This document shows, piece after piece, positions 3,899 to 35,222 of a DNA stretch of 64,000 bases. The notes under the pieces were generated by a model that saw nothing but the letters and a program-made list of their open reading frames with translations, was not told where the DNA came from and did not search any database. The translations under genes were made by a program, and so were the position numbers. Within the stretch, counting starts at the first letter, position 1; the number at the start of each line of letters is the position of its first letter. The DNA comes from Tritrichomonas musculus (lineage: Eukaryota > Parabasalia > Tritrichomonadida > Tritrichomonadidae): assembly GCA_039105265.1 (NCBI GenBank), contig JAPFFF010000011.1:1116001-1180000 (forward strand), read 5' to 3'.

Positions 3899-3936
3899 CC
3901 ACAGTATGGCCCATATAGGAGTTTATTTTTGGGTAA

Positions 3937-7856: not shown

Positions 7857-8686
7857 TCTTCACCTGAGTCTTCACCTGAAGGTGCCACGATTGGATCTCC
7901 TTGAGGTTCCACTTTAGGAAACTCCGATAATGGTATCGATTGGATCTCCTGTGGAGGTTCCTCGATTGGATCTCCTTGGGGTTTCTCGATTGGATCTCCT
8001 GGAGATTCCACGTCAGGAAACTCCGATAATGGTATCGATTGGATCTCCTGGATTGGATCTCCTGGAGGTTTCGGTTGGGGTTTCAAATATAGATTCGGAT
8101 TTGTGAAGTAAGTCGCGGCATTATCTTTAAGTCTTTGCTTCAAAGTTTGTTTCACACCAGCGTTATTCCTGTTGAATCCATTACACATATCATCTATGTT
8201 TTTGAGCGACTGTCGTATCTCATCATTGTACAGATCTGGATTATTGATGACATGTATCATATTATCGATGATTTCTTTTGACACACCGCATATAACATAT
8301 AATAACTTAAGAGTACCACGGAGATTGTTGTTCTGGACTTTATTCCGATAATATTCATATTTACCTGGGTCTTCGGAGTTTTTCAAATAATTATCCAGTT
8401 CGTAGTTGAACTCTCGGAGCCTCCACGAAAGACGGTCCTTAGTACGTTCAACTTGATCAGCCTCAATGGGATCTGATCCTTGATTTGGCCATGAGCGCTT
8501 AAGCTCCAAGAACTTACTAAGCACCTTATCACCGTACAGATTTCTATCATTGATGACACCTATCATAGCGTTGATGATATCATCTGTTGCTTTGCATTCA
8601 GTATATATAAACTTAAGGATATTACGGTCTCTGGCGCTCTTGACTTCATTATCAATACGGCTAAGCATACCTTTATTTTATAGTAA

Positions 8687-10631: not shown

Positions 10632-13600
10632 TCAATTCGAATTGCATATAATATAGTCCCCTGATGTGAGTCCGTGGATGAATGGTGCACAGGATTGGTT
10701 CTCGAGGACAATCATTTTGGTGTGTGTCCCGGTGAGAGCATTCTTGTTTACCGTGATCTTGGACATCATCATCTCACTGATTTTGCTCTGGATTTTTGTA
10801 TTGCGAGTCATCCCCGGAGGGGCTGAGAGCTTTGGCATGAAATGCCTCAGGAACGAAGTTCCGTCGCGCATCATCTGTAGATTGATATTTTTGCCAACCT
10901 TCACACCGCCATTGTCGATGATGTCCTTGTAATCATCACTTGTAATACGGTTTTTCTTGAGGGAGACCCCCTTGAGTTTGAGTGCCTTGGTTACAGCTCC
11001 ACTATTGAATATGGTGTAGCACTTAGGGGCCAACGCTATCATATTCTCACCATATTTCTCAATGCAGAGACCCAATATTTTCTTCTCATCAGCGATTGTA
11101 TTTATATTGGGGTTCGGCATGAACTTATATATGTTCTCATCATAGAATGCCCTATTCTTGATGATGTATTTGAACTCTTGATCGAACCCCTTGGTATCAT
11201 CACCAGCAACCGCAAAATACGCACTATCAGTGTCCCCCTCTATGAAATGGAATCGCTCCACATCAAGGCACTTGTACATGAACTCGTATATGAATGTGAG
11301 ATACCAGAATTTGGCATTATCTAGAGTCCAGAATGATTCCTGAAGGCATGTCGTGCATTTGAAGCTCTTTGGGTTCATCTGGAGTAGATAGTTGTCATCA
11401 CTCAATTTGGTGCCACTGACATAGTTGTCGTAGATGATATTCTGGAAGGTCTTATCGCGTGAGCATATCTTGATTTTGGAGAACTTCTCGGTGTTCATCC
11501 CATCGTACCCATATGAGCCATTCATGCTGATCTTGTAGAACTTCTCGTTCCCCTTGACGGTACCTGATATGATATCCTGACGGCGTTTCATGAACTCGCT
11601 AACAAATGGGTTGAATCCGCGATGAGCCTCGTATTTGGTGAGACTCTTGATATCCTCAATGACAAGTCCATGGTCGAGGAGGAACCAGAGGTAGTAATTC
11701 GAGAATGTCTGATAGGTACCCATTGTATCAACACTCATGGTCAGCTTCCGTTCAGTTTTGTCAACAGATGGGAGCTTATTGTGAGTCATGTAGTTGTGCA
11801 TATATGGGCCAATTGTGTTCTCATCATTGGTGATATCGAAATTGCGGAATACAGGTGGGAAATTGATGAAGTAGTTGATCTTGGATATTGGGCATTTCAG
11901 TATGACCTCCGCTTTGAATAGGAAATCGGGGTGTTCTTGGTACTTCTGGCTGTTGATGATACCCATACATGTGTTGTAGGTCTTCATATTTTTGACCCCA
12001 TCCTTGTACACCTCGAATCGCTCCATCATGGAACCTGGCATATACATGACTCCCCCGTGATATGGATTGGCATCATGTTTGGTTGAACTGAATGCAGATG
12101 GGTATAAGCTATTGAAATCAACTCCAACAATATGAGTCATCGTGTGTGGAGTATCATATGAGATTACCTTGTGATCAACGGCGTTGTATCTAAAGCGGTT
12201 TATTTTGGTATGACCCTTGATGTTGACACGGTGCATGACATTAGATAGACCACCAGTGATGTTGTTCCGTAAGCTGTAATACTCCTGTTCATCGTTGATG
12301 AGTGTTGGGAGATGCATCATCTTGCAGTACTTCTTCAGCTGAATTCGGAGTTTGGTTATATTGGGGTCATCACGACTGCGAAGTCTGTTGCATTCCGCAC
12401 AAGCGAGTTTACAGTTACTGAGTTCATGACCGATATCATTATTGATTCTATCGAGAGTAGGTCTGTTGGTCCATGTGAAGTGCTCACCACAGAGATGGCA
12501 CTTGCCAGTATCTGGATTGTTGTACATCTCCATGAACTTATCGAATTGCTCCTCACAAACACATTTATCGAGGTTCCTGGGTTTGTCCTTATGAGATTGA
12601 TTATATTTGACATCCTGGTTATAGTAGTTCTCGCATTTGAATCGCCACCAATCGAGGTTTGGTTTGAATTTGTTAATGGGATTCTGTATAGAGTATTCGG
12701 CATTCGGATTGAATTCCTTATATGCGAGTGCATACTTGATACAGGATGCATTCTTGCTTAGCGATAGGTTTGAGATGAGGTCCACATTGTACTGCGCATT
12801 GAGTGCAATCAGGTTGTCAATGGGTTTGATCATCATCTCGACATCATTATCATTGTATGCAAGTAGGTAGTCCCATCGGGTTTTATAGTTTTTGGCATCC
12901 TCGAGATATAGCTTGTAATCATCTGGTGTCAATGGATTCTTCTGGTTGAGATAGCTGTAGAACGCTTTATACTCAAATGACTCTGCTTGTGAGAGGACCT
13001 CATTGTAGTTCTCAATGTTGATGGCTTCATATGGGAACACACCCTTCGAGCTATTCTCAACTCCCCCAAAGTCTACCCCGAATTGTCGTAATGTACCTCC
13101 AGCGACAAATGATTGTGCATCGATGAATCGCAACTTGGTATCGTATTTGGGTGACTTCAATATGAACTGCTTCAATGAGGATGTGGTACCAATGATGCTA
13201 TTGGGTTCAACACTCCAGAACATATTTCGCTTGACTGAACTGTAGTTGAGATACTCCTTGAATAGGTTGCTATCGAATCTACTCGAGTTGAATCCAAATA
13301 CGGTTATCACATTCAGGTTGCGATCAATGGTTTTGAGATTGTCAACTGGTTGATTGATGAAGGATTTCATATATTGAACCTTATCGTGATACACTTGCTT
13401 GGATTGCTCAAACAACCACTCGATCCATTTGATGATGAACTCAGCTGAATCCCTTAATGAGAAGTGCCTTGTGGTGCAACCAGATTGCGATTTGACACAT
13501 GATGATACACTCAGGGGAATCAGTCGTGAGTTGATGGTTGTGGATGAACCAATGGATGTATTCACAGGCTGTTCAACAGTTTCGAAATCGTAGGTGATGT

Positions 13601-16256
13601 AATATATGTTGGGTTTCCATTCGAGACCATATGCTAAGCAATATTCGTACACCGGATTGCTGAGTATATGTGGACAGTATGGTAGTGGTTCACGATTGGG
13701 TATGAATCGCTTTCGAAATACCCCATCACAGTTCTTAACATGGTTCTCGAAACACCTCATGTTGTAATGACCGTAATGGGCATATGAGCCACACTTTGGA
13801 CAGATATGGATGTTGGTCAGCTTCTCAGCATTCCTGATGTACATTATGTGGATGATTCGATTTTGGGTGTACAGCAATGCGGATTTCCTAAATGAGTTGT
13901 CCTCATTGTATTTCCATTGGTCCTGAAGGTTATAGACTTTGAGATCCTCCAAGTACTCATAGATGTCCACATTCAAGTGATGCTTCTCGGCAGATGCCTT
14001 CATGGATTCAATTGATGTACCCGGATAGTTGTTCAGGAGGTCGATTGCATCTTGAGATGGCTTAGTAGAATACACTATATTGTGATCCTCGCATAGGAGC
14101 TTCCTAGCTGCCTGTGTGCGATTCTTAGTATTGCAACCAGATTCAGGGTCAACCAGATGGTCATCTAGACATGCAGCCAGAAATCGGTACCAACATAGAT
14201 TGTCATCAGCATTGTCCGTGATGATGAATTTGCTATTTTTGATCTCAGGAGGTAAATCCTTGATTGGACCACTAACCTTGACCATTCGAGATACCGTGAA
14301 TGAGACTGATCCTACAATAATCAACTTGGTTCCAGATGTTGAGGTCTCATATGAGTGTAGTACTGATTCAATATAGTACTTCACGATATCAAGCGATTGC
14401 TCATCACGAACCACAATTGGGATAGCCGATTTATAGTTGTTCCAATTGATTTCCCTAGCTGCATATTCACATGAATACCCAAACATATTCTCACTCTCAT
14501 CACAGGGGGACTGAAATACACCTGAGAGTTGGAAATAGATTTTGAATGGTTTTACCTCACGCTTATAGACCTGTTGCAAGCCGTCATATATGGTGTTCAA
14601 TGAGGATATCGAGTTGAAGTAGTATATGTATATTGGCTCATAGGTATCGATATCCTCACGCTCCTTGTAATCACTATCAGCATATTTGGTATATGATCGC
14701 CAAGCCTCAACAGCCCTATCATAGCTATCAGGTTCATTCACCATGAGGAAATCGGTGTGTTTCGATTTGAACTCATGACCGAACTCACTGAGGTACTCGA
14801 GTATTTCATTATTTTCAGGGTCCTTGGGGAGATCATCAATATTTTCGGGGGCCTTGGGGGAATCATCATTAATAGCGTTACTATTGATAATATGGATCAG
14901 TTTTGTAACCTTAGTCCTGTCTCGGGGTATATTATGTATTTCAGTTCTGTCGATATACTCGGGGAAATATTTGTTGAAATATGAACATACTTTGTTATCA
15001 TCAATATTAGCGTTACCATCGATAATATGATTCAGTTTTGTAACCTTAGTCCTGTCTCGGAGTATATCTTGTATTTCAGCTCTATCGAGATACTCGGGAT
15101 AATACTTGTTGAAATATGAATATGCTTTGTGTTCATCATCTAATTGCTGAATGAACTTAATCCAGGTATTCAATTGCTGGCGTTCATCAATGCGGTCCTC
15201 AATCTTGTAATCATCTCTATTGAATTTACTGAAGTAATCATTATCTAATGCCACACGGCGTTCAGCCCTCAGCTGCTCGAAGAATGTATCAAAATCTGAT
15301 TCCTTGAGCTTACCAGTGCGATCAAAACCGGTGCGATGTACAAATAAATTATCATTTAGGAACTTCTTGAGTGGGCCCAGTTGAAGAATATACGTAGTGT
15401 TAGTAGGGATGTTACCACCGAACTCAGTGTTGATGATATCGATATATTTTTTGACAGTTTCTGGGGGGATTTCACCAAAATGCTTATTCGAGATCTTGAG
15501 ATGCTTTTCACGGTCCTGTTCCTGTTTCTTCTTCAATCGATCGCGTTTCGACTTCTCAGCCAGTTTCTGTTCCCGCTTCTGGAGACGCTCCTGCTCAGCA
15601 CGCTCCCATTCCAATTGCTTAGCACGTTCACGTTCAAGTCTGACCTCCTCAAGTGCATGCAGATTATGTTCAGTTGCATCCCTCAGTAGCTTATCCTCTT
15701 GTTCATCATGCAATCGCTCGAAGAATGTATCAAAATCTGATTCCTTGAGTTTATAAGTGGTGTCGTAATCCGTGCGATATACAAATAAATTATCATTTAG
15801 GAACTTTATGAGACTGCTCTGCTGTGCGGCCTGTGGTATGTCGGTTGGGATTTTGCCATCGAACTCGGTGTTGGCGATCTTGATATAATCTTGGACATCA
15901 CTCGCGGTTAAATCCCTTTTATCAAAATGCGTCTTCTTAATCTTGCTATTCAGTAAACGTTCAGCATGTTCTAACCCCAATTTCTCAAGACGCTCCTGCT
16001 CAGCACGTGTAAGCCTCAGTCGTCTGATGAATGTATCAAGATCTGATTCCTCGAGCTTATTATCGGGATCAAAACCAGTGTGAGCTACAAATGAGTTCTC
16101 ATTCAGGAACTTTATGAGACTGCTCAGCTGTCCAACATAGGGGTTTCTGGTTGAGATACCCCCACCGAACTCCTCATTGATGATATCGATATAGCTTTTG
16201 ACGACATCTGTGGGTAGAACCTTTTTATCGAAATTCCAACTAGTAATATTACTCAT
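10632..16256 (-). CDS. Protein-primed family B DNA polymerase with OTU-like, zinc-finger and HNH modules, element A
   Basis: 1874 aa, the replication enzyme of the element. Order: three tandem repeats of about 110 residues (1-335; each with FDTFFERL-type ends), a 48-residue direct repeat (about 375-465; SYFNKYYPEYLDR), an OTU-like region with DDNLCWYRFL (Cys688) and RIIHIMYI (His near 803), a C2H2-type finger CPKCG...H...C (about 818-842), exonuclease motifs YDFETVE (near 889), FGFNSSRFDSN and YNDNDVEM, an HNH motif (CHLCG, LDRINNDIGHELSN, CAECN; about 1250-1300), then polymerase motifs DFNSLYPS (near 1380), KISMNGSYGYD and EGDTDSAYF. Near the C-terminus is a 30-odd-residue insertion coded by three hairpins. 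All catalytic residues seen are intact. The C-terminus stops where the B homologue continues into a primase-like domain. Confidence 0.93.
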   Translation of the reverse strand: MSNITSWNFDKKVLPTDVVKSYIDIINEEFGGGISTRNPYVGQLSSLIKFLNENSFVAHTGFDPDNKLEESDLDTFIRRLRLTRAEQERLEKLGLEHAERLLNSKIKKTHFDKRDLTASDVQDYIKIANTEFDGKIPTDIPQAAQQSSLIKFLNDNLFVYRTDYDTTYKLKESDFDTFFERLHDEQEDKLLRDATEHNLHALEEVRLERERAKQLEWERAEQERLQKREQKLAEKSKRDRLKKKQEQDREKHLKISNKHFGEIPPETVKKYIDIINTEFGGNIPTNTTYILQLGPLKKFLNDNLFVHRTGFDRTGKLKESDFDTFFEQLRAERRVALDNDYFSKFNRDDYKIEDRIDERQQLNTWIKFIQQLDDEHKAYSYFNKYYPEYLDRAEIQDILRDRTKVTKLNHIIDGNANIDDNKVCSYFNKYFPEYIDRTEIHNIPRDRTKVTKLIHIINSNAINDDSPKAPENIDDLPKDPENNEILEYLSEFGHEFKSKHTDFLMVNEPDSYDRAVEAWRSYTKYADSDYKEREDIDTYEPIYIYYFNSISSLNTIYDGLQQVYKREVKPFKIYFQLSGVFQSPCDESENMFGYSCEYAAREINWNNYKSAIPIVVRDEQSLDIVKYYIESVLHSYETSTSGTKLIIVGSVSFTVSRMVKVSGPIKDLPPEIKNSKFIITDNADDNLCWYRFLAACLDDHLVDPESGCNTKNRTQAARKLLCEDHNIVYSTKPSQDAIDLLNNYPGTSIESMKASAEKHHLNVDIYEYLEDLKVYNLQDQWKYNEDNSFRKSALLYTQNRIIHIMYIRNAEKLTNIHICPKCGSYAHYGHYNMRCFENHVKNCDGVFRKRFIPNREPLPYCPHILSNPVYEYCLAYGLEWKPNIYYITYDFETVEQPVNTSIGSSTTINSRLIPLSVSSCVKSQSGCTTRHFSLRDSAEFIIKWIEWLFEQSKQVYHDKVQYMKSFINQPVDNLKTIDRNLNVITVFGFNSSRFDSNLFKEYLNYSSVKRNMFWSVEPNSIIGTTSSLKQFILKSPKYDTKLRFIDAQSFVAGGTLRQFGVDFGGVENSSKGVFPYEAINIENYNEVLSQAESFEYKAFYSYLNQKNPLTPDDYKLYLEDAKNYKTRWDYLLAYNDNDVEMMIKPIDNLIALNAQYNVDLISNLSLSKNASCIKYALAYKEFNPNAEYSIQNPINKFKPNLDWWRFKCENYYNQDVKYNQSHKDKPRNLDKCVCEEQFDKFMEMYNNPDTGKCHLCGEHFTWTNRPTLDRINNDIGHELSNCKLACAECNRLRSRDDPNITKLRIQLKKYCKMMHLPTLINDEQEYYSLRNNITGGLSNVMHRVNIKGHTKINRFRYNAVDHKVISYDTPHTMTHIVGVDFNSLYPSAFSSTKHDANPYHGGVMYMPGSMMERFEVYKDGVKNMKTYNTCMGIINSQKYQEHPDFLFKAEVILKCPISKINYFINFPPVFRNFDITNDENTIGPYMHNYMTHNKLPSVDKTERKLTMSVDTMGTYQTFSNYYLWFLLDHGLVIEDIKSLTKYEAHRGFNPFVSEFMKRRQDIISGTVKGNEKFYKISMNGSYGYDGMNTEKFSKIKICSRDKTFQNIIYDNYVSGTKLSDDNYLLQMNPKSFKCTTCLQESFWTLDNAKFWYLTFIYEFMYKCLDVERFHFIEGDTDSAYFAVAGDDTKGFDQEFKYIIKNRAFYDENIYKFMPNPNINTIADEKKILGLCIEKYGENMIALAPKCYTIFNSGAVTKALKLKGVSLKKNRITSDDYKDIIDNGGVKVGKNINLQMMRDGTSFLRHFMPKLSAPPGMTRNTKIQSKISEMMMSKITVNKNALTGTHTKMIVLENQSCAPFIHGLTSGDYIICNSN
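10812..10862 (-). repeat. Triple mini-hairpin insertion in the polymerase gene
   Basis: Three stem-loops in a row, each with a 3-nt loop: CCCC-GGA-GGGG (10812-10822), GGCAT-GAA-ATGCC (10834-10846) and GGAAC-GAA-GTTCC (10850-10862). They code for residues absent from the B polymerase at the aligned place (between INLQM and the SKITVNKNALTG segment), so they look inserted in frame. Confidence 0.75.
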
Positions 16257-17647: not shown

Positions 17648-18829
17648 ATGACATATCAGAACGCTCAATTCAAAAACAGCGGAAATGATGAAGGTGATAT
17701 TCTCGAATTCTTTAACGATACACTCAGAAACCTCGTACAGAAAAACGGTGGGGATAATACATTCTCATTCGTCACTGAAGAGTTTCAGAATAAAGATGTA
17801 CCCATGCCCGTCGGTACTAAAACACGTTTGAAGCTCACACACAGCGGACACACCATCAGTCAAATCGAAAAGGGGTTCATCAATGCAACAGTCGAATTCA
17901 AGGTAAAACTTCAAAACGAAATGCCTGCGAAGATAGTTCATAAAATTGTTGCTAGTGAGAATGAAGATGCAAGTAAAGTCGATGATCCAAACATTGAATT
18001 CAATTCATTATCACATACTGGTGGAGTTAACATCTGGACCGTTAAATTCAATACTCTTCAACTTGCAAATACAGGTACTATCACTGTCGCTAGAACTAAT
18101 TGTGCTGGATTCGGAGTTAAACCTGAAGTTATGAAGGGATTATATGAAATATTAAAGAATCCAATCATCATCCCATCACAAGAACTCACTCGTGAGATTT
18201 TCGAGGGCTCAGCTAAGGGTAATAGCGGACTTGATGTCTCTAAATCAATACCTCTCCGTAACGCTACTAATATCACTCTCATGTTCCCTCGTCATCCAGG
18301 TGATATCACATGCTTCCAAAACATTATGTATCGCAACTGTCAACTCACTGTCAACAAGAAACAGTACCCTGATACCGAATTCGAAACAACATATGATGGA
18401 AGATTCGTTCAACATCAACTCATCGCTAACGAACTCGATGGATGCATTGAAGCTACTGATGAACTCGTTAGATCTTTCTCTCTCGCACTCAATGATGAAT
18501 CCACAGGTAAGCGATATAAGTCATCATCAGCTGCTGATAACACATCATTCGGTATCAACTTCCAACTCGAACGTGGAAATAGTGGATATGTTTTCGACGG
18601 TATCGATATGGGATGTCACTCAGTCACCGTTACATTCAAGGGATTACCTATTCATGGAGGTGAAAACGATACATACTACTATCCAGATACCCTCGATGAT
18701 GGAACTGTCGTTAAAGATATTCATCCACCAGCACCTGAGATGTGGATCTGTAGTGATACATGGTGGAGCTGGAGTATCGATGGAGGTGTTAAGTATCACC
18801 CACGTGGAATTCCAACAGGTTATGAGTAA
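17648..18829 (+). CDS. Double jelly-roll major capsid protein, element B
   Basis: 393 aa. The N-terminal 90 residues align with the A capsid frame (M-x-YxN, FSF, LTHSGHTISQIEKGF). Two beta-rich halves are separated by a helical linker near residue 185 (VMKGLYEILKNPIIIP). It ends in a Trp-rich segment (MWICSDTWWSWS). It is shorter than the 560-aa C capsid protein. The next gene (18886) follows after 56 bp on the same strand, then the fibre-like gene, forming a structural cassette. The assignment rests on similarity to the A frame and on context; the fold was not tested. Confidence 0.7.
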   Translation: MTYQNAQFKNSGNDEGDILEFFNDTLRNLVQKNGGDNTFSFVTEEFQNKDVPMPVGTKTRLKLTHSGHTISQIEKGFINATVEFKVKLQNEMPAKIVHKIVASENEDASKVDDPNIEFNSLSHTGGVNIWTVKFNTLQLANTGTITVARTNCAGFGVKPEVMKGLYEILKNPIIIPSQELTREIFEGSAKGNSGLDVSKSIPLRNATNITLMFPRHPGDITCFQNIMYRNCQLTVNKKQYPDTEFETTYDGRFVQHQLIANELDGCIEATDELVRSFSLALNDESTGKRYKSSSAADNTSFGINFQLERGNSGYVFDGIDMGCHSVTVTFKGLPIHGGENDTYYYPDTLDDGTVVKDIHPPAPEMWICSDTWWSWSIDGGVKYHPRGIPTGYE

Positions 18830-18885
18830 ATGAATCTCATCATCGACACATACATTAAATGATATATTTTTCGATTTTAACGTGA

Positions 18886-19389
18886 ATGAAACACATGTCA
18901 ACATACTCGCAACGAGAATTTCATTCAATCCCAATCAAGAGAATCACTTGTTTCAACATCAATCCTTATCGAGGTGATGAAGCGATGGATATCAACGGTG
19001 ATGGAGTCATTGATGATTATGAACGTCAAGTATACTACAATCAATCCACAGAACCAACGATGAAAACATACTTCATCACTCGCGATTATGAGAATACATT
19101 ACCTCTAGAATTCGTTAACTCATCGAATGATCGATACATATCATTTCAATACTGTAGAGCTACTTGTCAACACTATCTCGATGGTGAAACTGAAGTCCAT
19201 TGCTCATTCGTTCCACGTGATGAATACTGTGATTCCTTAGTGTGGTATGCGAACTTAACACCTCCTGATGATAATCGCAAGTACGAAATTATATCACGTA
19301 AAAATGCCTTTAAAGTATGGTTCACTGATGCTGAGGGTAAAGAGATTAAACCTGATAATTTCACGCTTTTCTTGAAACTTGAATATTGA
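18886..19389 (+). CDS. Penton-like protein with an EF-hand-type loop, element B
   Basis: 167 aa. Residues about 34-45 read DINGDGVIDDYE, a full calcium-binding EF-hand/dockerin loop pattern (D-x-N-x-D-G-x-I-D-x-x-E). The C-terminal 110 residues match the A protein at 3566 (SFVPRDEYCDSLVWYANL / HSDIVEFDPYCDHFIMLAN, then FKVWFTDAEGKEIKPD). It follows the capsid gene on the same strand. The likely role is a minor vertex protein of the particle; the calcium loop would be an addition absent from A. Inference from shared ending and setting. Confidence 0.6.
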   Translation: MKHMSTYSQREFHSIPIKRITCFNINPYRGDEAMDINGDGVIDDYERQVYYNQSTEPTMKTYFITRDYENTLPLEFVNSSNDRYISFQYCRATCQHYLDGETEVHCSFVPRDEYCDSLVWYANLTPPDDNRKYEIISRKNAFKVWFTDAEGKEIKPDNFTLFLKLEY

Positions 19390-19407
19390 ATTTTCATCAG
19401 CGATTCA

Positions 19408-19435
19408 TTTGCGAAGCAAAGTCCACTACGTGGAT
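19408..19435. repeat. Two-hairpin mini-element, intergenic copy
   Basis: TTTGC-GAA-GCAAA followed directly by TCCAC-TAC-GTGGA. The same two stems recur at 22830-22857, where the first loop is the reverse complement (TTC) and the second is TCC. It lies in the 105-bp spacer between the penton-like and fibre-like genes. Confidence 0.65.
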
Positions 19436-19494
19436 GAAGCGAACTACACTAGCATGAATGCATATCTACTATTTTTAACATCGATGAAACATAC

Positions 19495-21393
19495 ATGACT
19501 GGAATATTAACGAAACAGAATGCTATAGATAAAGCTCTTGTAGGTGGAGGTGGTGGAGGTACCGGCGATAGCAATGGATTACTGAATACATTACATGTGT
19601 ATCACGATGCAACTTTCGATGGGCCCACTCGTTTTGAGAACTTCGATGGAGCTAGTGTAACTTTTAAATCTACTCCTGTATTCGAAAATGATTTGAATGC
19701 TGTTGTTGATGGTGAAATTGTATCGATAAAAATACTTCAAGAGAATGATGTTAAGAATGAGTACGCTGTTGAATGCGTTGCTGATGCTCTTGGATCACTT
19801 GATGATCGATATGAAGATATGTTTCTAACTGTGAATGATAACATCACTAAATTATAAAACACTATTGATGAGCACCTAACAGAGAATCCTGATATAATTA
19901 ACAATAATAATAATAACGATAATGATACATCAACACAAGTTGTTAATGCATTGAATACACTCTCTACAATTGCTCTCACTGATACCGCGGTTTTATTGGA
20001 TGAAGGTGAAGTAACTGAAGAACCTCAACCTGATGAAGAACTCCCTGAACTCACTCCTGAAGATGTCGATGCTGTATTCGATACATTGATATCACACGTT
20101 AACGAATCACTCAATCATTTCGAAACTAATGATGAAACACTACATCTGATTACTCTCGATCATGATAGAAAAATTAAGGTTCTCGATGATGGTATGGCAC
20201 TAGCTACTGAGATGATAACGAATATCAATGCTTGTATCGATGATGAACTCGAACCTGCAATCAATAAGAATACAACTGATATCACTCAACTGAAAACTGA
20301 TGTCGATGAACTCACTAACGATGTATCATCAATAAGTAATACTATGGCATGTAAAGTCGATCTCGATGATGTTAATGAAAAACTCACTAATGAAATCAAC
20401 TCATTGAATTCAGCTGTTGATAATCGATATACTAAATCCGAAGTTGAAGATAAACTCAAACCTATTAATGATAAACTCATTGGTGATGTTGGATCGATAA
20501 CTACAGATCTCAGTGATAGATATACGAAGAAAGAAGTTGATGATAAACTCATTCCGATAAATAATAAATTCGATGATTATGTGTTGAAGACATCATTCGA
20601 TTCATCGATAAGCGATATCAATACATCACTTACAAATCGATATACAAAGAAAGAAGTTGATGATAAACTCACATTAACGAATAATAAATTCAATAATTAC
20701 GTAACGACATCATCATTCACCACAACCGTTAGCGATCTCAATACAGCACTTACAAATCGATATACAAAGAAAGAAGTTGATGATAAACTCACATTAACGA
20801 ATAATAAATTCAATAATTACGTAACGACATCATCATTCACCACAACCGTTAGCGATATCAATGACGAACTCAGTGACAGATACATCAAGAGCGAGATCGA
20901 TAACAAGGTATCCACTATCAACAACTCCCTCAACAACAGGTATACAAAGAGTGAAGTCGATAACAAGTTCGTTACATCAACGAAGCATACTAGCGATATC
21001 AATTCATTGACGACATCCCTCAACAACAGATACACCATGAGTGAATGTGATACTAAGTACGTTCATCAAGATAGTATCATTCCGAGCACAGACACAACTA
21101 CTACTGCATTCACTGATGATGATATTCTATCAGCGTTGAACACCGTTAATCGCATCAATAACGCACAGTTCTGGTATCGATCGGGTAGTAACGTGGTAAG
21201 ACCGAAGAACGCTGATTTCGTTCGATGTATGTTATATGCAGAGCAACTCAGGTTTACTAACGATTCAAATAGATATGTCAACGATCTCGCGTTGAGTACC
21301 GAAACTGTAAACAACGATACTTCACTAGCAACATCAGCGTTCGTACATAAATGTGTTGAGATGATACGTACCCGGGATGATACCACCCCATAA
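19495..21393 (+). pseudogene. Fibre-like protein, element B, with one in-frame stop
   Basis: A 633-codon frame open except for a TAA at 19855-19857; both parts lie in the same frame (120 aa, then the rest). N-terminus MTGILTKQNAIDKAL with a Gly6 hinge; then a stalk of repeats of the type NRYTKKEVDDKL, including an exact-like 120-bp tandem duplication (20641-20880). The end is globular with VRPKNADFVRCMLY. The build matches phage-type fibre stalks and the A fibre-like gene. The stop separates the N-terminal anchor region from the stalk, so the product is probably lost. A second protein from the ATG at 19951 is possible but less likely. Confidence 0.65.
20641..20880 (+). repeat. 120-bp tandem duplication in the fibre stalk
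   Basis: 20641-20760 and 20761-20880 are nearly identical, adding 40 codons that hold one NRYTKKEVDDKL repeat and the NNYVTTSSF segment. The low divergence shows it is recent. Confidence 0.85.
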
Positions 21394-21394
21394 A

Positions 21395-21661
21395 GAGAAA
21401 CACTGCATCCACAATGGCTGGGGAAAGAACGAATCTTTCATTACAAGAGGATAACATTTACCGGTAAATACCTTCGTGCTATCTATACCACAAGCAATAG
21501 CTTACCACTAGGTGTTTAGTTCGCTAGGGCTCTATCACAAATATGATACAAAATAACACGAAAAATCGGTACTGAGGAGAATCGAACTCATGCCTGCCGC
21601 CGAAGCTGGGAGACATGCTTCATGACTCTACGACTGTACCCGTTAGCGCTAACATTTATTA
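21395..21661 (-). repeat. tRNA-like inverted repeat, right copy
   Basis: Read on the minus strand it begins GTTAGCGCTAAC, then GGTACAG, the conserved block ATGTCTCCCAGCTTCGGCGG, GAGTTCGATTCTC and CAGTACC. GGTAC can pair with GTACC as an acceptor stem (6 of 7 positions), and the T-arm pairs 4 of 5. The body shares CATATTTGTGATAGAGCCC and GTGGATGCAG with the left copy at 16355. It starts just after the fibre-gene stop. Confidence 0.7.
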
Positions 21662-22001
21662 GTTAACGATTTAATATTTATTTATAATAGGGTGTCACTT
21701 TTTTATGCTGTAGATAGCGGAGTATGTAGTATCTCCCGATAGGAGACACTTAGAGGGGTTTTGACGATAGATTTGAGATATCGTTATTAGCGGTTAGAAG
21801 GTCAATTATTTCGCCTTAACCGTCGAGAGGTCAATTGAATTCACCTTTCGAGATACTGAAAAATATGAGATTTTCCTATCGAATTTTCGAACATCATATC
21901 TCGATGAATACTCAACGGATTTGATTCTTTCCTTCACCATCGATAGCGGTGATTATTAAGAATCTATATATCATTAATACATCATGATATACACTTTATT
22001 T
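21662..22001. other. AT-rich spacer without a recognisable gene
   Basis: It holds two similar stretches around AGGTCAATT (about 21795 and 21828), a nine-base TAGGGTGTC like a mariner end (21688-21696, no partner found), and AT-rich sequence. An opposite-strand frame (21984-22238) is judged a shadow of the 22002 gene. Confidence 0.4.
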
Positions 22002-22250
22002 TCATGGTATTTTCGTGATATTTTCGAGAGTATGTTTAATTCTCCATACAATATTCTTGAGTTCTTCAATATCTTCATCAATGAAACTCTGGATTACGAA
22101 GGTGTTGCGAATGTAGTTCATCAACTCATCGAGTTTATCTTTATCATAATTATATCGTTTAAATTCATCATAAGCATTCTCTCTCAATCTATTGAAGAAT
22201 ACATTGTTTTTAACGATATCGTTAGAGATTCCATCTAATGTATCATTCAT
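22002..22250 (-). CDS. Hypothetical helical protein, element B
   Basis: 82 aa, rich in Asp, Asn, Glu and Lys, predicted all-helical from its spacing of hydrophobic residues (LDELMNYIRNTF, IEELKNIVWRIKHTLENI). No Cys, no signal peptide, no family recognised. The T-tract ATATTTTTACTC lies upstream of the ATG as in neighbours, which is the main support for the start. First of three minus-strand genes in a row. Confidence 0.5.
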   Translation of the reverse strand: MNDTLDGISNDIVKNNVFFNRLRENAYDEFKRYNYDKDKLDELMNYIRNTFVIQSFIDEDIEELKNIVWRIKHTLENITKIP

Positions 22251-22308
22251 TTCTGATGAGTAAAAATATATTTCTTGAGAATTTCACATCACTTAACATG
22301 TCATTCAC

Positions 22309-22731
22309 TCAACATACCATCTTCATTGAAAACCCATAGCGAATGAATTGTGAGTATATATCATTTCGACTGTACTTCAAGTCTTCACTCTTACCGTTAA
22401 TCGTGATGAGTATTTTCGATATGTATATGATTTTATCGGATTTCCAACTGCATCCACCACATGAGATATCATCATTGAGTACGAGATCTACTTTCTCGCA
22501 ATCGGTGAGTAACTTAAACATCTCCATCAACAACTTACTTTCACACACAACATATGAATTCACCTTCAACGGATTATTCTCATATATCTCGACTAACATC
22601 TCTAGAAAACGATTCTTCTTATCGAGTTCATCAATCTCAGAACCTAGATCTGCGATACCCCTTTCTCGAGCTAATGGGGAATGATTGTTTATTGGAGGTT
22701 GATATTGATATGCTGATTCCGGATTGGTCAT
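22309..22731 (-). CDS. Hypothetical protein of a family shared with element C
   Basis: 140 aa. Residues about 35-140 align with the C-terminal half of the C gene at 50132: helix, then VDLVLNDDISCGGCSWKS (C: VQLNEDVGCCAAKS), then a strand with KILITINGKSEDLKYSRN (C: KIDAIKIIKDNGEVVIDLKQ), ending in aromatic/hydrophobic residues. The paired Cys residues are conserved between the two elements. No named domain is recognised, but conservation across distant Maverick lineages indicates a core function. It abuts the upstream 22732 gene with the stop and start codons adjacent (TAG-ATG). Confidence 0.55.
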   Translation of the reverse strand: MTNPESAYQYQPPINNHSPLARERGIADLGSEIDELDKKNRFLEMLVEIYENNPLKVNSYVVCESKLLMEMFKLLTDCEKVDLVLNDDISCGGCSWKSDKIIYISKILITINGKSEDLKYSRNDIYSQFIRYGFSMKMVC

Positions 22732-22995
22732 CTATGTATCTGAAGCTATTCCATCCGTTTGAAACCCCATTTGTGGGGCTACTGGAGTAAAATTTACATC
22801 GTTTCGTAATGGATGTACATCGGGATACATTTGCTTCGCAAAGTCCACTCCGTGGATAGGTACTGTTGAAGGTCTTCTCTCATGATGAGGTTTACTCTGA
22901 GGGGGTTTGATGTTGATATTAACATTAGTATTCTGCTCTTGCTTTATTGTGTTATCAGTCTCACTAGATAGTATTCTCGCGGCACGTAAAGTCAT
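22732..22995 (-). CDS. Hypothetical disordered protein containing a mini-hairpin element, element B
   Basis: 87 aa, Pro/Asn/Gln-rich, no folded domain apparent. Codons 45-60 (PIHGVDFAKQMYPD) are encoded by the two-hairpin element at 22830-22857. Its stop is directly followed by the start of the 22309 gene, so they are probably read as a pair. No family recognised. Confidence 0.45.
   Translation of the reverse strand: MTLRAARILSSETDNTIKQEQNTNVNINIKPPQSKPHHERRPSTVPIHGVDFAKQMYPDVHPLRNDVNFTPVAPQMGFQTDGIASDT
22830..22857. repeat. Two-hairpin mini-element, in-frame copy
   Basis: TTTGC-TTC-GCAAA then TCCAC-TCC-GTGGA inside the 22732 gene. The stems are identical to 19408-19435, with the first loop inverted. 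Confidence 0.65.
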
Positions 22996-23046
22996 TTCGT
23001 ATCGATTAAAAACATGATATTCTCGATTTTAATATCACCTCAAAAC

Positions 23047-23286
23047 ATGGGATTCGGAAGCTGGTTCAAGAAGCTCGGGAAGAAAATCAAACAGGGATTT
23101 AAAGATTTCGCGAATGGATTCAAACATGGATGGAACAAGACTAAGTCAGTACTCGAGAAGGTACCTGTCATAGGTAATGTCGCGAAAGTGATACCTAAAT
23201 TCAATAACAAAAATAATCCAGTATCGCAACACTTCGGTGGTGATGGATATATCAAATTCGATAGTAACGGTAATGCAATTTCTTAG
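23047..23286 (+). CDS. Short basic amphipathic protein, second copy in element B
   Basis: 79 aa from MGFGSWFKKLGKK. An upstream in-frame ATG at 23014 adds 11 residues, but the relatives at 979 and 17568 begin at the equivalent point. Lys/Phe-rich amphipathic N-terminal helix, VPVIGNVAKVIP hydrophobic middle, polar tail (KFDSNGNAIS). It overlaps the convergent 23283 gene by 4 bp. Two members in one element (with 17380) is unusual and may mean that B is two elements side by side. Confidence 0.6.
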   Translation: MGFGSWFKKLGKKIKQGFKDFANGFKHGWNKTKSVLEKVPVIGNVAKVIPKFNNKNNPVSQHFGGDGYIKFDSNGNAIS

Positions 23287-23570
23287 ATATAGAGATTTCT
23301 CACAGCTCTATTTAATAGGGCGCGTACTTTCATGTTGTGATCGTATTTTTGTTGAATTCTTTGACGTTGACGAATCTTCTTCGGATTATCAGATGGAGGT
23401 TGATTAAGTATTTTTCGATAATATTGTAATCGTGAATGTATTAACTTCAATGTCTTCGTTGCGAATGTTTTACGCTCATGACGTTTCTTCAATGGAGGTA
23501 ACGTTAAGTTATCCGTTAAAGCGGAACACATAGTATCAGCTGAAGAGGCACACATAGTATCACAGTTCAT
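23283..23570 (-). CDS. Hypothetical strongly basic protein, element B
   Basis: 95 aa. The N-terminus has a short internal repeat (DTMCASSADTMCSALTDN, from a tandem duplication around 23530-23565). The remainder is rich in Lys/Arg/Gln (KKRHERKTFATKT, KKIRQRQRIQQKY), suggesting nucleic-acid binding. No family recognised. Divergent from the integrase region across about 40 bp with a T-tract. Confidence 0.5.
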   Translation of the reverse strand: MNCDTMCASSADTMCSALTDNLTLPPLKKRHERKTFATKTLKLIHSRLQYYRKILNQPPSDNPKKIRQRQRIQQKYDHNMKVRALLNRAVRNLYI

Positions 23571-23609
23571 GATATTTCATTCTCGTTAAAAATATTTTAT
23601 GCATCATAA

Positions 23610-25317
23610 ATGTATAAGCAATTAGCAGACACTCTCATCGAATTCATCAAACGCGAAATCACAGGTGCTATCATCGATCCATCAACACTAAAGAAGAAGC
23701 ATATATCACGTGAAACTGAAGATATAATCAATCAATTCAAAAGAGGGATATCGTTTGTCATTACTTCAAGCACGAAATGTAATCGACTTAAAAGTTCGCG
23801 AAATCATCACCACACCAAATAAATATCGAGAATCATTTCTGAAAATACCTGAGATTCGACGTTTAAAGAACTCTGATATCGAGATACTATGGGATGAATA
23901 CATTGCGAAATGGAATTCACATCAACATGAAATAAATCATCAATCACGTGATCGCAAGTTAAATGCTGCTCGAGAATTAATCAACAAGAAAGCTACCTCG
24001 ATATCTCAAGAACCCTCACGATACCATTCATCATTCATGAATCTTCAACCGATACGATTATTAGATGATGACGATAAGCAACTCATATGGAATGAATACG
24101 TAACGAAATGGAATGAGCATCAATCAATACCTAAACCTCGATTATTCAATACATACATCGATAAACTCAGGGATTTCATCTCACGTAATCACGATAGAGA
24201 ACTCACTTTCGATGAATTCAAGACACAAGCCCCTTCAGGTTGGGAACGAACGAGTACACCTATAGAGAAGTGGTATGAGAAATATCATGATTTATTCTAT
24301 AAGCATCCTGGTACATTCACAGAGATTAACAATCAACTCGCACCTAAATTCATTGCATTCAAATCACCAAGTAAGATTAAATCTCTTAAATCTACATACC
24401 CTCAACTGAATCCCATCGAATCGTCATCCTCATCATACTTTCCATTGAAAGATAACAAGAAATATCAACTCCACAAAGTATCTCCTAAAGATACATACAT
24501 CATCGACTTAGTATTCTCAGGTAAACTATGTTACTTATTCGCTATCAACGTGAATACAAGATACTTATTCGTTGAATTGATGAATGAGATCCTATTCAGT
24601 GATAATGAAGAAGATAACACATCGAAGATATCGAAAACGAATGTGAAAACAACTGATACTTTCATACATACACTTCAGAAACTCATCGAGAGAGGTATGA
24701 ATGTTAAGCATCTTCAAGGTGATGGAGAGAAAGTATTCGGTGCTAACAAATCTCTTGAGTTCTATAAATCAATGAATATCAAATTCGCATCAGTACCTCG
24801 AATGAGACTCAATGTATCTCCATCATTCATGAAACCTATTATTCCTAAAAATCAATGGAATAAATCAGCTCCAATGCATAGTTCGTTAGGTATACTCGAT
24901 AGAGTAGTTCGTACTATTCGTGACATGGCATATAACATGAAGGTGGGTATCATCACACCAGGTATCATGAAGGTACTCGTGAATCAATACAACAACGCTC
25001 CACATAACACACTCTCGAAATATGTCGGTATGGATATATCGCCACAGATGGTGCAAGACGATTCCGAGCTAGAAGATTACATCATTCGACAGATACATAA
25101 AGAGAACTATAACATCATGAATCAGCCTGGATTCAAACTCCCTAACGGTACATCAGTAAAGATATATAACGAGAATGATTCAATGATGAAGAGAAGATCT
25201 ATCATTCAACCCGGTAAGTATCACATCGTTGATTCTCATGACGGTATATACACAGTCGCTGATGATAAAAATAATACGCAATTGATACCTCGATACAAAC
25301 TTGATGTCACGATTTAA
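23610..25317 (+). pseudogene. Maverick integrase, element B, with probable frameshift near 23750
   Basis: The main 520-codon frame begins after a TAA at 23725 and has no ATG near its start; an ATG frame from 23610 overlaps it and ends soon after. The two together give one long protein of expected layout, so a one-base change near 23740-23760 is likely. The N-terminal part has two diverged 45-residue repeats (ILWDEYIAKWNSHQ and LIWNEYVTKWNEHQ). Core: Asp in TYIIDLVF, INVNTRYLFVE, Asp in LQGDGE, then LGILDRVVRTIRD with Asp in place of Glu, and YNNAPHNTLSK. The stop overlaps the polymerase stop by 4 bp. Activity would need the frames to be joined. Confidence 0.75.
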
Positions 25318-27890
25318 AACGTTTCATTATAATACTTAGAGTTATATAATCTTATTATTTTTCGTAATACATTGATATGTGAATGATTACCCTCAGTTCT
25401 ACTCATCTTCAAATCGAAATTCATATCAGCATTCGCAGTGAGATTACATTCACGACGTACTTTCTCGTAAGCGATATATCGATTCTCTGGGGATAAGTAG
25501 TTCAGAGCTGAGAACAATGGGAATAATGTTAATTCTTCATCTATTCTTCTCGTATCGTTATGTACTTCCATACCAAATAATCCGTTAATGAGTTTCATCT
25601 CTTCATCACTATCGAGATATGCAATCTCTCCATCATTACTCTCATGATATGTTGTTGAGGGTTTATTCGCGAAGTCAATGTCGATACCTAAATCTCTCAT
25701 TACATCATCACTGGTGCGTTTCAATATCGATTCATAACTTCCACGAATGAATACATATTTTCCATTACTATTCAATGATCCCGGTAACATTATTGTCGCT
25801 TGTGTATCATTATATGCAGTGATGATGTCGATATCGAAGTTCTCTCCAGTGAAGCATTTACCGTAAGCATTCTTATGATATCTATCGTAATTCATTTCGT
25901 TAGTGTAGATATGTAATCCACCACTTCCAGTCTTCACAACAACATCATCATTACTGAGTTTCTCAATGAATTTATTACGAATGATTTCTCGTTCATCAGG
26001 TGATAACGATTTGTTGATATCAATATCGATTACTGTTAATCCAGCACATTTATTCACCATGAGATTTCTACCTGTCTGATTCACTCTGAATTCACATTCA
26101 ACGTGAGTACCTTTCACAGTCCCATGTTTACTATAGTTATACGTTTCATAGAAGTTGTTATCGAAACGATTCTTAAGCGATAATCCGTAACAGTTATACG
26201 TTTCATAGAAGTTCTCAGCTACTGATTTCAATACATTTAGTGATTTATCTCTGAGGTATTGATTCATTTCAGCATCAGTAGCACGACACATCTCTTGTTT
26301 CATCATGTATATCGCGAAGTCATCATCATCATCATACATCTCGTTAATCAACTCATCAACAGCATCTTCATCGATGATGATATCTTTAGTTTCGGTGTCA
26401 ATGATGATATCGTTAGATGTTAATCCCTTAATGAATGGAACGCATGATTCATTCTCCAACACAATCATCTTGTTATGAAATCCAGTTAACGCATTCTTAT
26501 TAACAGTAACTTTCGACATTCGATTACGCTTCATCTGAAGGTTGATGTTGATACCTGGAACTATGATTTTATCATTAATGATTGATTCGTAATCACTTGA
26601 TTTGATTTTATTTTTCTTTAACGATACACCCTTGAGTTTAATAGATTTCGTTTCGATAGATCCGTTATCGAGATTATTCCATATAGTATAACATTTGGGG
26701 CATAACGCAACTTGATTATCACCGTACTTCTCAACACAACATCCGAGGAGTTTCTTCTCATCAGTAGTAGTATTTATCGATGGATTTGGTAGGAACTCAT
26801 AAGCATATTTCTCATAGAAATCTTTATCGGTAATGATAGCATCGAAACCTTGTTCACCATGACGATTCATATCACCAGCGATGGCGAAGTAAACACTATC
26901 TGTATCACATGATGTGAAGTGAATTCTCTCTATATCAACACACTTGAAGAGGAAATCATAAAGGAATGTAAGGTACCAATACTTCGCATTATCGAGAGTG
27001 AAGAACGATTCTTGAAGAGGAGTCTTACATCGAAAACTCTTGGGTTGAACTTGAATCATATATGATTCATCTGTAAGTGGAATACCATTCATGTATGTAT
27101 CAGAGATGGTGTATCTATATACGTTATCAGCATCAACGATCTTGATTTTATTATAATTCTCTGTGTTTAAAGCATCATAACCGTAAGATCCATTCATACA
27201 AATTTTATAGAATTTCTCAGCACCTTGTTTCACTCCATCAAGTATCGCTACACGTTCACTCATGAATTCTTTAACGAAACTATTGAAACCTCTGTGACAA
27301 TCATATAAAGTTACATTCTCGACATCAACTACTTTCAATCCATGATCTATGAGGAACCACAAGTAATAGCATCCGAAAGTCATGAATTCACCCATAGTAT
27401 CTAACAACATCGTAAGCTTAGTATCACGTTCATCAACGGAATGGGGCTTGTGATCTTTACTGTAGTTATACATGTATGAGCCGATAGTGGATTCATCGTT
27501 ATTAATCTTAATATTACGGAATACGATAGGGAAGTTGATGAAGGAATTGATTTTCTCTTTCGGGCATTCGAGTTTAACAGTAGCGTAAAACATAAACTCA
27601 GGATCACTATCGAATCTATGTTTGGAGTGAATGATATTCATACACTTACGTTTGATATCTTTATCAACATTACCGTCAGCGTCATAACAATTGAATGAAT
27701 TCACCATTGATCCAGGCATGTACATGATACCTCCATGATACTTATTGAACGAGTGATATTCAGATGAGAATGATGAAGGATACAAACTATTGAAATCATC
27801 ACCTATCACATGAGTAACAATATTAGGTGTATCGCGAGAGATAACTTTATTAGTTTCGATATCGTAATGGAGTCTGTTGAAAATTTTTGA
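25314..27890 (-). pseudogene. Protein-primed DNA polymerase fused to a primase-like domain, element B; N-terminus lost
   Basis: The frame is open to 28022, but homology to the A polymerase starts at about 27885 (NRLHYDIETNKVISRDTP); upstream residues come from junction and A2 sequence. The exonuclease, OTU-like and HNH regions are therefore missing. Polymerase motifs remain: DDFNSLYPSSF, KICMNGSYGYD, TSCDTDSVYF. After the point where A ends (GLTSNDIIID), about 370 residues follow. They include GLTVIDIDIN (26016-26045), VVKTGSGGLHIY (25904-25940) and IDIITAYN...LPGS (25777-25835), matching the three motifs of archaeo-eukaryotic primase (PrimPol) domains, then a helical tail. What it does in a protein-primed system is unknown. 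The surviving frame has no internal stop. Confidence 0.82.
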
Positions 27891-28170
27891 CGTTAAGATT
27901 TCCGCCAATGAATAAAAAAATTCCGCCAGTACCTGCAAAATATGCCTTGGAGGAATCATTATGTAGAGTTGATGATGTTGACTTAATGATTGGGTCATGT
28001 ACAACACACCCCTTATCCTCATATTTTGGGACTGTGGGTTTGGTACAACTCATAGTTCGCCTACTTCGCATGTGACGTTCCAGGTGATTGAAATACGTAA
28101 GTCCATTTGAATCTCTTAATACACGGCGTTCCTCATAAGAATTGCATTCCTGCGCTTTCGCGTATGACAT
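27850..28170 (-). CDS. A2 copy of the 75-aa basic protein, with insertion and altered tail
   Basis: 106 aa. Residues after codon 12 match the A1 gene at 1712 nearly perfectly up to STSSTLH, then run into junction sequence and B polymerase DNA in another frame, so the last 46 residues are accidental. A 27-nt insertion (28138-28164) adds nine codons (AKAQECNSY) near the start and includes two small stem-loops. It is probably a damaged copy. Confidence 0.4.
   Translation of the reverse strand: MSYAKAQECNSYEERRVLRDSNGLTYFNHLERHMRSRRTMSCTKPTVPKYEDKGCVVHDPIIKSTSSTLHNDSSKAYFAGTGGIFLFIGGNLNVKNFQQTPLRYRN
27885..27961. other. Junction spacer between element B and element A2
   Basis: 77 bp that match neither A nor B. 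They contain TTCCGCCA twice (about 27900 and 27930) and end in TCATTA before A sequence starts. The spacer before A3 (60253-60311) has the motif in inverse form and the same TCATTA end. Confidence 0.5.
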
Positions 28171-28204
28171 TTAATCTTGAAAAAACACTTTTTTTCATAT
28201 CTAA

Positions 28205-28438
28205 ATGACTGAATTGGGTGAATACAAGAAGGAGATTCCAGAGCTTAAGCGCATCAAGCATGATCTCAAGGAGAAGTGCTATATGTATAAGGGCCACCTC
28301 AATAACATCAAAGGGGGTATGCTGGGTAGTAATGGACTAGCCGTTCGTGAATCACTGATTGAGGATATCAATAGTCTGAAGGAGAAGGTCGCCAAACTCG
28401 AGAATGAGCTCGCTGAATTATCAAGCGATAACCACTAA
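28205..28438 (+). CDS. Small coiled-coil protein, A2 copy
   Basis: Protein identical to the A1 gene at 1974-2207 (77 aa); only silent changes. The same Lys/Glu-rich start, Gly hinge and heptad helix. Perfect protein conservation with silent DNA change hints at constraint, although the copies are very young. Confidence 0.6.
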   Translation: MTELGEYKKEIPELKRIKHDLKEKCYMYKGHLNNIKGGMLGSNGLAVRESLIEDINSLKEKVAKLENELAELSSDNH

Positions 28439-28478
28439 ATATGGGGTCGACGGGATTTCCCGCAGACCCAGATTTCAT
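28427..28478 (+). terminator. Single 55-bp hairpin unit after a stop codon (A2)
   Basis: One unit, GATAACCACTAAATAT plus palindrome (about 28443-28470) and GATTTCATGG. A1 has two units here. The palindrome stem matches the second A1 unit. Confidence 0.55.
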
Positions 28479-28523
28479 GGAGATAACCACTAATTCCCTG
28501 AGACCACTATTTTTGCACATTAA

Positions 28524-29738
28524 ATGACTGACAACAGGAAATCGTTCAAGATATTCGACAATGAGTACAATTCGCTGCTCAAGTACCCATTCAAATCCAA
28601 GATATCGAAATTGGACCCATCGCAGTTCATCATCAACCCAGAAACTCATCATGAACCATTCGTGAAGGACTTCAAATTGAAATCATGCAATCCCTATTCA
28701 AAACCGGATTTCTCATTGGAACCCGGATGCTGGGAAGTCGATTTGATGTTTGTGAAGTACACCACAAGGGCTGATGATGAAATCCAGTCCGTGGTAGTCC
28801 ATGAAACCATTTACCTCATCATGGTGAATGTCAACACACGGTATCTAATTGTGGAACCGCTTAAGAACAGACTAGATGATACCATCAAGACTGCATACAC
28901 CAAAATCATTCTTGAGAAATATGATGACTTCAAATTCAATACCATCAAATGCGATGGTGAGAATAACCTACTCAAAGTGCTTGATATACTTGGCCGCTAC
29001 AATCCATCCAGAAATAAATATAGAGGTACCAAAAATGTGTTGATTGACCGTAATGCAGTGATTGTCGATAAATCCAAACACAACAACGCTCACAAAATCG
29101 TTGATGCAACCATCAGGACACTCCGTAATGCATTCGGTTTAGATAATCGTCGGATTGGAGACCCATACCTGATGCAACAGATGGTACACTTCTATAACAA
29201 CACACCACATCGGTCTCTACGAATGCCCAATCCCAATTACCGAGATGATGGAATCCAATATGACCCGTATCTAGCAAGGGAACCCAAGTGGATATACTAC
29301 ACACCCAATCAAATGCAGCACAACCCAGATTTGGAGTGGAGATACATCAGGGATTGCCAAAGGAGGCTACGTCGAGTCAAAAATAATATGCAAATGGGTG
29401 GACTACTGAGCTATCGCAAGGGGAATATCATATTGGTCCATTACGATACATCCAAAACTGAGAAGAAGCATGAGAAGCAGAGGCGTGTGTTCAATGAGAT
29501 TGCCGAATTCATTAGATACCATAATGGGAACGTCGAATGTAAACTGCTGAAGCCATATTATAGATTCCAGTTGAATGATAATGATCAATATGTTCCATAT
29601 ACCAAAACCAAAACTGGTCGAACGCCTAAGACTGATGATGAGCGAGCTACCGTAACTGTCCCCATTATGTATACCCGATTCGTGGCACCCAATTATGCAT
29701 CACTAGGTAAAGACTATAAGCAGTACTTTGCTATCTAA
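28524..29738 (+). CDS. Maverick integrase, A2 copy
   Basis: 404 aa, intact. It differs from the A1 integrase by two conservative Ile/Val changes (RRVKNN, RVFNE). The same catalytic Asp73 and Asp144 and the same Asp194 in KIVDATIRTLRN. As an intact frame in a truncated element it could still act in trans if expressed. The stop lies 3 bp before the next gene. Confidence 0.92.
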   Translation: MTDNRKSFKIFDNEYNSLLKYPFKSKISKLDPSQFIINPETHHEPFVKDFKLKSCNPYSKPDFSLEPGCWEVDLMFVKYTTRADDEIQSVVVHETIYLIMVNVNTRYLIVEPLKNRLDDTIKTAYTKIILEKYDDFKFNTIKCDGENNLLKVLDILGRYNPSRNKYRGTKNVLIDRNAVIVDKSKHNNAHKIVDATIRTLRNAFGLDNRRIGDPYLMQQMVHFYNNTPHRSLRMPNPNYRDDGIQYDPYLAREPKWIYYTPNQMQHNPDLEWRYIRDCQRRLRRVKNNMQMGGLLSYRKGNIILVHYDTSKTEKKHEKQRRVFNEIAEFIRYHNGNVECKLLKPYYRFQLNDNDQYVPYTKTKTGRTPKTDDERATVTVPIMYTRFVAPNYASLGKDYKQYFAI

Positions 29739-29741
29739 TAA

Positions 29742-30074
29742 ATGCCAAAGCGCTATTTCCATACACAGACCACCGAGTTTAAGCTACCTGAGGACTTCAT
29801 ATATAGTCGCAATAAGAAGTACATCGTAGTGCAGTATGTGGGAGCTATCCTGAATAAGACCATCATCGGTGATTTGATGGTACACTCGGTTATTGTTGAA
29901 TTTGACCCATACTGTGACCACTTCATAATGCTAGCCAACAGACGGCAAACCAAGTATCGCAAATATGAGATGCTCAATAGGACCAAGCGGGATTTCAAAA
30001 TATGGTTCACAGACCTGTATGGTAATGAGATAAAACCCGATGCATTCGTGCTATCGTGCTTGCTAATCTATTGA
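29742..30074 (+). CDS. Penton-like minor structural protein candidate, A2 copy
   Basis: 110 aa, one residue different from A1 (HSVIVEF for HSDIVEF). The same FKIWFTDLYGNEIKPD ending that links it to the B and C minor capsid candidates. Same tight spacing after the integrase. Confidence 0.55.
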   Translation: MPKRYFHTQTTEFKLPEDFIYSRNKKYIVVQYVGAILNKTIIGDLMVHSVIVEFDPYCDHFIMLANRRQTKYRKYEMLNRTKRDFKIWFTDLYGNEIKPDAFVLSCLLIY

Positions 30075-30112
30075 CCACAGTATGGCCCATATAGGAGTTT
30101 ATTTTTGGGTAA

Positions 30113-31549: not shown

Positions 31550-31556
31550 TACATGT

Positions 31557-35126: not shown

Positions 35127-35144
35127 ACCTTTATTTTATAGTAA

Positions 35145-35222
35145 ATGTTCAGTATAGAACAGAGTGGATTTTCAATAAAAGCAGCCACTATCGACGAGTT
35201 ACTAATAGAATACATCAAAAAG
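35145..35222 (+). pseudogene. Fibre-like gene start, truncated by element C
   Basis: The first 26 codons match the A1 fibre-like gene (8687; one substitution, EQSG for EHSG). Sequence then changes at once into the terminal repeat of element C. The rest of the gene does not resume on the other side of C. Confidence 0.85.

Follow-up and report, generated by a model that had tools for sequence, protein, structure and literature searches.

A protein-primed family B DNA polymerase joined to a C-terminal AEP domain in a Maverick/Polinton-like element of Tritrichomonas musculus

The DNA analyzed here, referred to as the window, is a stretch of 64,000 nucleotides from Tritrichomonas musculus (assembly GCA_039105265.1, contig JAPFFF010000011.1, positions 1,116,001 to 1,180,000). 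An open reading frame (ORF) of 902 residues without internal stop lies on its minus strand at 25314-28022 and joins the palm of a protein-primed family B DNA polymerase (PolB) to an AEP domain of the primase-polymerase type. The features of this gene, and the related polymerase with which we compared it, are as follows, in window coordinates.

25314..28022, minus strand: 902-aa ORF, a 5'-truncated protein-primed PolB palm plus C-terminal AEP domain; its first ~20 residues come from the adjoining repeat
27962..27962, no strand: junction with a 97% direct repeat (27962-35222 vs 1758-8764), truncating the polymerase
26400..27875, minus strand: PolB palm with motifs A, B, C and KxY, residues 50-541
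27774..27797, minus strand: palm motif A, DFNSLYPS (D76)
26895..26906, minus strand: palm motif C, DTDS (D373, D375)
26181..26399, minus strand: variable linker, residues 542-614, with indels among relatives (median dN/dS 0.47, 48 pairs)
25665..26183, minus strand: AEP core, residues 614-786
26013..26033, minus strand: AEP motif I, VIDIDIN (D666, D668), both Asp in 13/13 aligned fusions
25905..25931, minus strand: AEP motif II, TGSGGLHIY (H704), His in 13/13 aligned fusions
25827..25829, minus strand: AEP motif III aspartate D732, in FDIDI...MLPGS, 13/13 aligned fusions
25317..25616, minus strand: helical domain following the AEP core, residues 803-902
10632..16256, minus strand: related 1874-aa polymerase without AEP, the comparison sequence

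The stop-free frame here runs to 911 codons, whereas 300 first-order Markov resamplings of the same stretch never gave more than 191; this, together with the many copies in the genome, rules out a chance ORF or an assembly artefact. A join of two adjacent genes confined to this locus is likewise ruled out, since relatives and other genome copies share it. The preliminary description of this DNA had read polymerase and AEP domain as a single frame; the fusion stands, but the truncation of its 5' end had been overlooked. The direct repeat begins sharply at 27962, and homology to the window gene breaks off at 27875 in the full-length relative P0033 and at 27880 in an intact copy from the same genome. 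The window copy is without the exonuclease, the HNH-type part, and the N-terminal domains, and exonuclease motifs I-III are therefore not in its ORF. What the window retains is the 3' end of a replicase gene from a Maverick/Polinton-like element, and intact copies of this gene are found elsewhere in the genome. The 7-kb repeat itself (~97%) carries an integrase and other ORFs; its copy at 27962-35222 cuts the fusion gene, and the copy at 1758-8764 continues into a 618-aa ORF.

Palm motifs A, B, C, and KxY are all present in the window ORF, of which residues 49-541 are 54% identical to the window's other polymerase (10632-16256). This unfused enzyme stops 4 residues past the shared homology, in line with the earlier observation that it ends just before the extra domain. 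The motif C Asp pair (D373, D375) is kept in 13/13 aligned fusions, of which the window ORF is one; D76 is present in all 11 that extend to motif A. In a fold comparison, the predicted palm was closer to protein-primed than to RNA-primed PolB and nearest to that of phi29. The Pfam model DNA_pol_B_2 matched neither the window ORF nor the 1874-aa relative at E <=1, and it is listed for 10/81 relatives of the latter. Similarity between the A4 profile and the window's standard Maverick PolB was weak (hhalign probability 1.9%).

The motifs VIDIDIN, TGSGGLHIY, and hD...LPGS, which the preliminary description had placed after the polymerase motifs, lie in the 361 residues past the palm homology as it stated, and the fold comparison that it had proposed bears them out: the predicted domain has an AEP/PrimPol fold, with plasmid and phage primase-polymerases as the best matches. 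Sequence models were less informative about this part of the protein. Pfam returned nothing at E <=1, NCBIfam had no meaningful match, and the sole PHROG match was "DNA primase" (E 0.0057). A sequence search of the PDB with the A1 profile matched solely via the helicase half of the relatives, and one with the A4 profile found no match for palm or AEP. By sequence, the domain is most closely related to AEP-SF3 helicase proteins (primase-helicase type), with 36-40% identity to the N-terminal part of database proteins P0002-P0012. No SF3 helicase follows the AEP in the window ORF, where the frame stops past the AEP helical part, and three AEP-SF3 queries against the window matched the AEP part only, giving no AEP-SF3-type helicase in the window.

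That the fusion might recur in other elements had been raised at the outset, and it does, in at least 40 places in the same genome and in 12 database proteins. With the window ORF as query, the 193.4-Mb assembly of 746 contigs gave 1065 candidates, of which the best 50 were scored, so that all counts are lower bounds. Palm and AEP were matched through to the end at 40 of these 50 places, the window's included, and the remaining 10 cover part of the query alone. Among the 40, 36 have no stop within the match, and in 28 the open frame reaches at least 1951 aa. They group at ~97% identity, at 85% for the palm with 67-69% for the AEP, and at 55-59%. Because intact copies of the fusion are so numerous, it probably represents a functional enzyme rather than an accident.

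Selection was estimated from the ratio of nonsynonymous to synonymous change (dN/dS) in 25 of 26 own-genome sequences (300 pairs), with L018 omitted because of one stop. For pairs with synonymous distance 0.05-2, the medians were 0.13 for the palm (136 pairs), 0.26 for the AEP (125), and 0.47 for the linker (48), on pairs that are interrelated and of which many have synonymous distances >1 or saturated. Medians without the distance limit were 0.13, 0.27, and 0.47, respectively, and the closest 22 AEP pairs alone gave 0.36, with a maximum of 0.96. As its median lies at 0.26 against 0.13 for the palm, the AEP is under purifying selection that is weaker than that on the palm.

Among database proteins, residues 540-902 as query retrieved 24: one fusion (P0001), 21 with PF19263, the fragment P0008 without a Pfam domain, and P0022 from a Streblomastix strix bin. 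P0002 matches DUF5906 and VapE-like models, and the P4-type primase model at E 8e-9, below that model's cut-off. The 1874-aa polymerase retrieved 81 relatives, 10 of them with a C-terminal AEP, and a search for group II AEP relatives added a single further fusion, P0106. In the palm table, 330-920 residues follow the palm in fused enzymes vs 0-61 in unfused ones. P0096-P0098 are counted as fusions on weaker evidence, namely BLASTP E-values of 1e-5, 0.02, and 2e-7 outside the hmmsearch list, together with motifs and tree position. P0098, at 2823 aa, is the longest member found, with ~490 additional residues inserted ahead of the final conserved block in its polymerase part. The ends of P0001 and P0033 resemble groups from the T. 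musculus genome, and an origin in other organisms is therefore not required; both could stem from this species or a close one. No relatives of the fusion were found in viral_contigs, where an AEP-SF3 profile gave 9 distant matches (24-28%), all outside the query's AEP half. On two contigs filed in an alphaproteobacterial assembly (L001, L002), a polymerase of this family that has no AEP is accompanied by a retroviral-type integrase and a capsid-like ORF; the contigs are probably protist DNA within a symbiont assembly.

Full-length fusions give a picture of the enzyme from which the window ORF derives. All 9 full-length database fusions retain Exo I-III and the HNH-type motif, along with a Cys/His pair where the vOTU would lie; the name vOTU for that pair is putative, resting on PMC11071308 and on sequence motifs. 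In the intact enzyme, an N-terminal region holding a probable vOTU protease would be followed by the exonuclease, an embedded nuclease of HNH type, the PolB palm, and the AEP, with palm and AEP assigned from sequence and predicted fold and the remaining parts from sequence motifs. An HNH/endonuclease VII-like zinc nuclease also lies between exonuclease and palm in the 10632-16256 polymerase (residues ~1236-1310) and its relatives. In a 51-row alignment, conservation reaches at least 90% in its Cys, Asp-Arg, His, and Cys-Asn columns, and PHROG endonuclease VII matches at E 7e-7.

Trees of the two domains were used to ask how the fused genes are related. The palm tree, made by a quick method, holds 82 of 86 sequences, leaving out three short palm segments and P0103 (no match); P0106 was found later and is absent. 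Its fused groupings were named after the data had been seen. The window, P0001, P0033, and P0031 form one set (support 97), and eight further fused rows fall in a 13-row clade together with five unfused rows. A single clade of all 12 fused rows was rejected on this tree (p-AU 3e-34, approximately unbiased test), and one clade of the eight was not. In the AEP tree, the first set lies among AEP-SF3 proteins (support 80/76), separate from the second, and a single clade of all fused AEPs was not rejected (p-AU 0.41). Two acquisitions of the AEP are the simplest reading of these sequences; passage of an AEP module between polymerase lineages, or a single gain with several losses, is possible.

The fusion gene belongs to a larger element, for which two further features are relevant.

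17912..27880, no strand: stretch of the fusion-bearing element, collinear with the intact copy on another contig (L038, L013)
23755..25317, plus strand: ORF for a retroviral-type integrase, convergent with the fusion gene and overlapping the stop of the latter; the two are paired likewise at an intact copy (L013, L038)

Identity between 17912-27880 and the intact copy's contig is 96-98%, save for one 0.7-kb piece at 94%, and because of this collinearity we assign the fusion, on sequence grounds, to an element spanning at least 17.9-27.9 kb and distinct from the neighbour with the other polymerase. The fibre-like and integrase genes are shorter in the window than at the intact collinear copy, and a 393-aa ORF within the element has no Pfam match. 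A retroviral-type integrase beside a protein-primed PolB (pPolB) is a feature of Maverick/Polinton elements. This integrase is related to that at 55261 (E 3e-13), which itself has a sub-threshold Pfam match to rve (E 6.6e-4).

Upstream flanks vary between copies, and some contain other inserted elements. Directly upstream of one intact fusion copy is a DEAD/DEAH-type helicase gene (L039:7302-8675; Pfam DEAD E 6e-14). We do not take it as part of the system, because 3.6 kb of upstream sequence at each of ten other copies gave no match to it, and as a replication partner it was dropped, being beside 1/11 copies alone. An LRR-like ORF, of a kind associated with trichomonads, was seen at L045; together with the distant relatives in Streblomastix and the number of Mavericks, it would fit a metamonad. 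The window also holds a second Maverick of ~25 kb (35223-60252) with terminal inverted repeats of ~295 bp at 98% and genes for the standard PolB, an integrase, an A32-like ATPase, and an Ulp1-type protease. Its right part (57211-60256) is repeated inverted at 60953-64000 (95%). Inside this Maverick, at 47679-48979, lies a mariner-type transposon that has 41-bp inverted repeats (93%) and codes for a 363-aa transposase.

Replicase types described to date include AEP-SF3, PolA-SF3, pPolB-SF1, SF1-pPolB, Prim-SF2, and HelPrimPolB (PMC11071308, PMC12721341, PMC7544198, PMC12220804, PMC10120064, PMC4642659). In polinton-like replication, pPolB and the AEP-SF3 helicase substitute for each other, and loss of the exonuclease accompanies gain of a helicase (PMC11071308). 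The fusion shares with the Polinton/Maverick pPolB, of order TP-vOTU-EXO-PALM (PMC11071308), the phi29-class palm, the Exo motifs, the Cys/His pair at the vOTU position, and the adjacent integrase, but adds the C-terminal AEP and the HNH-type nuclease between exonuclease and palm. With the AEP-SF3 proteins of polinton-like viruses and other elements (PMC11071308, PMC12220804) it shares the AEP; in contrast to them, it has no SF3 helicase, and its AEP sits behind a complete polymerase instead of replacing one. The Tlr1-like pPolB-SF1 helicase and the Oxyrrhis SF1 helicase-pPolB (PMC12721341) are likewise multidomain protein-primed replicases of protist virus-like elements, but their partner is a helicase rather than a primase-type AEP, and Tlr1-type forms are without exonuclease. 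HelPrimPolB (PMC7544198) also fuses PolB to a PrimPol domain, yet there an EpsilonN-like PolB carries an N-terminal SF3 helicase and PrimPol, whereas here a phi29-like palm carries a C-terminal AEP and no helicase. With an AEP as its C-terminal domain, the fusion belongs with neither HelPrimPolB nor the Tlr1-like pPolB-SF1. The preliminary description knew of no such fusion, and in the available portions of the open-licence literature we too found no paper on a protein-primed PolB fused to an AEP, by name or by terms.

The frame is intact in its full-length copies, recurrent, and under selection, with two predicted polymerase folds and both sets of catalytic residues. The best explanation as a whole, to which we give a probability of about one half, is that the window ORF is what remains of a replicase in which a protein-primed palm works with an AEP that primes internally, the primers being passed in cis. 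By analogy with its class, the palm would start from protein primers at the ends of a linear genome. The AEP would make or extend primers on exposed single strand, such as a displaced strand or a stalled or broken fork, and these would be handed to the palm within the same protein. We propose more tentatively that such a dual-initiation replicase, with protein-primed ends and AEP-made internal primers, arose at least twice, by protein-primed polymerases acquiring the primase half of AEP-SF3 proteins minus the helicase.

The preliminary description had left the choice between hybrid replication and repair open; the intact recurrent copies, kept catalytic residues, selection, fold matches, the two fused groups on the palm tree, and the primase-helicase type of the nearest AEP relatives speak for the hybrid reading. 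On the repair side, the AEP would be a captured repair, lesion-bypass, or end-joining polymerase of the LigD/PrimPol kind, acting around integration or excision and not at the start of replication. We regard this as unlikely, since in sequence the domain lies closest to AEP-SF3 proteins of the primase-helicase type, and its best fold matches are primase-polymerases from plasmids and phages. Less likely again is a polyprotein from which the putative vOTU or another protease frees the AEP, the free primase then pairing with a helicase encoded elsewhere. The Cys/His pair in every full-length fusion and the variable linker are consistent with it, and the vOTU of pPolBs has been proposed to release the terminal protein, but the published cut lies on the N-terminal side (PMC11071308). 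An AEP that mainly binds single-stranded DNA or recruits factors, with catalysis dispensable, would accord with its faster evolution relative to the palm; retention of the four catalytic positions in 13/13 aligned fusions, across two groups, makes this improbable. The locus is indeed rearranged, the gene's 5' part being lost at 27962, but with the same join in many same-genome copies and other database sequences, an assembly artefact or one-off local rearrangement can practically be dismissed.

The domain combination, which we did not meet in the literature searched, extends the history of these viruses and transposons. A protein-primed replicase with an internally priming AEP would hold two initiating chemistries in one protein that retains its exonuclease and is without a helicase, and because both are in one protein, the fusion lets internal priming by protein-primed elements be tested directly.
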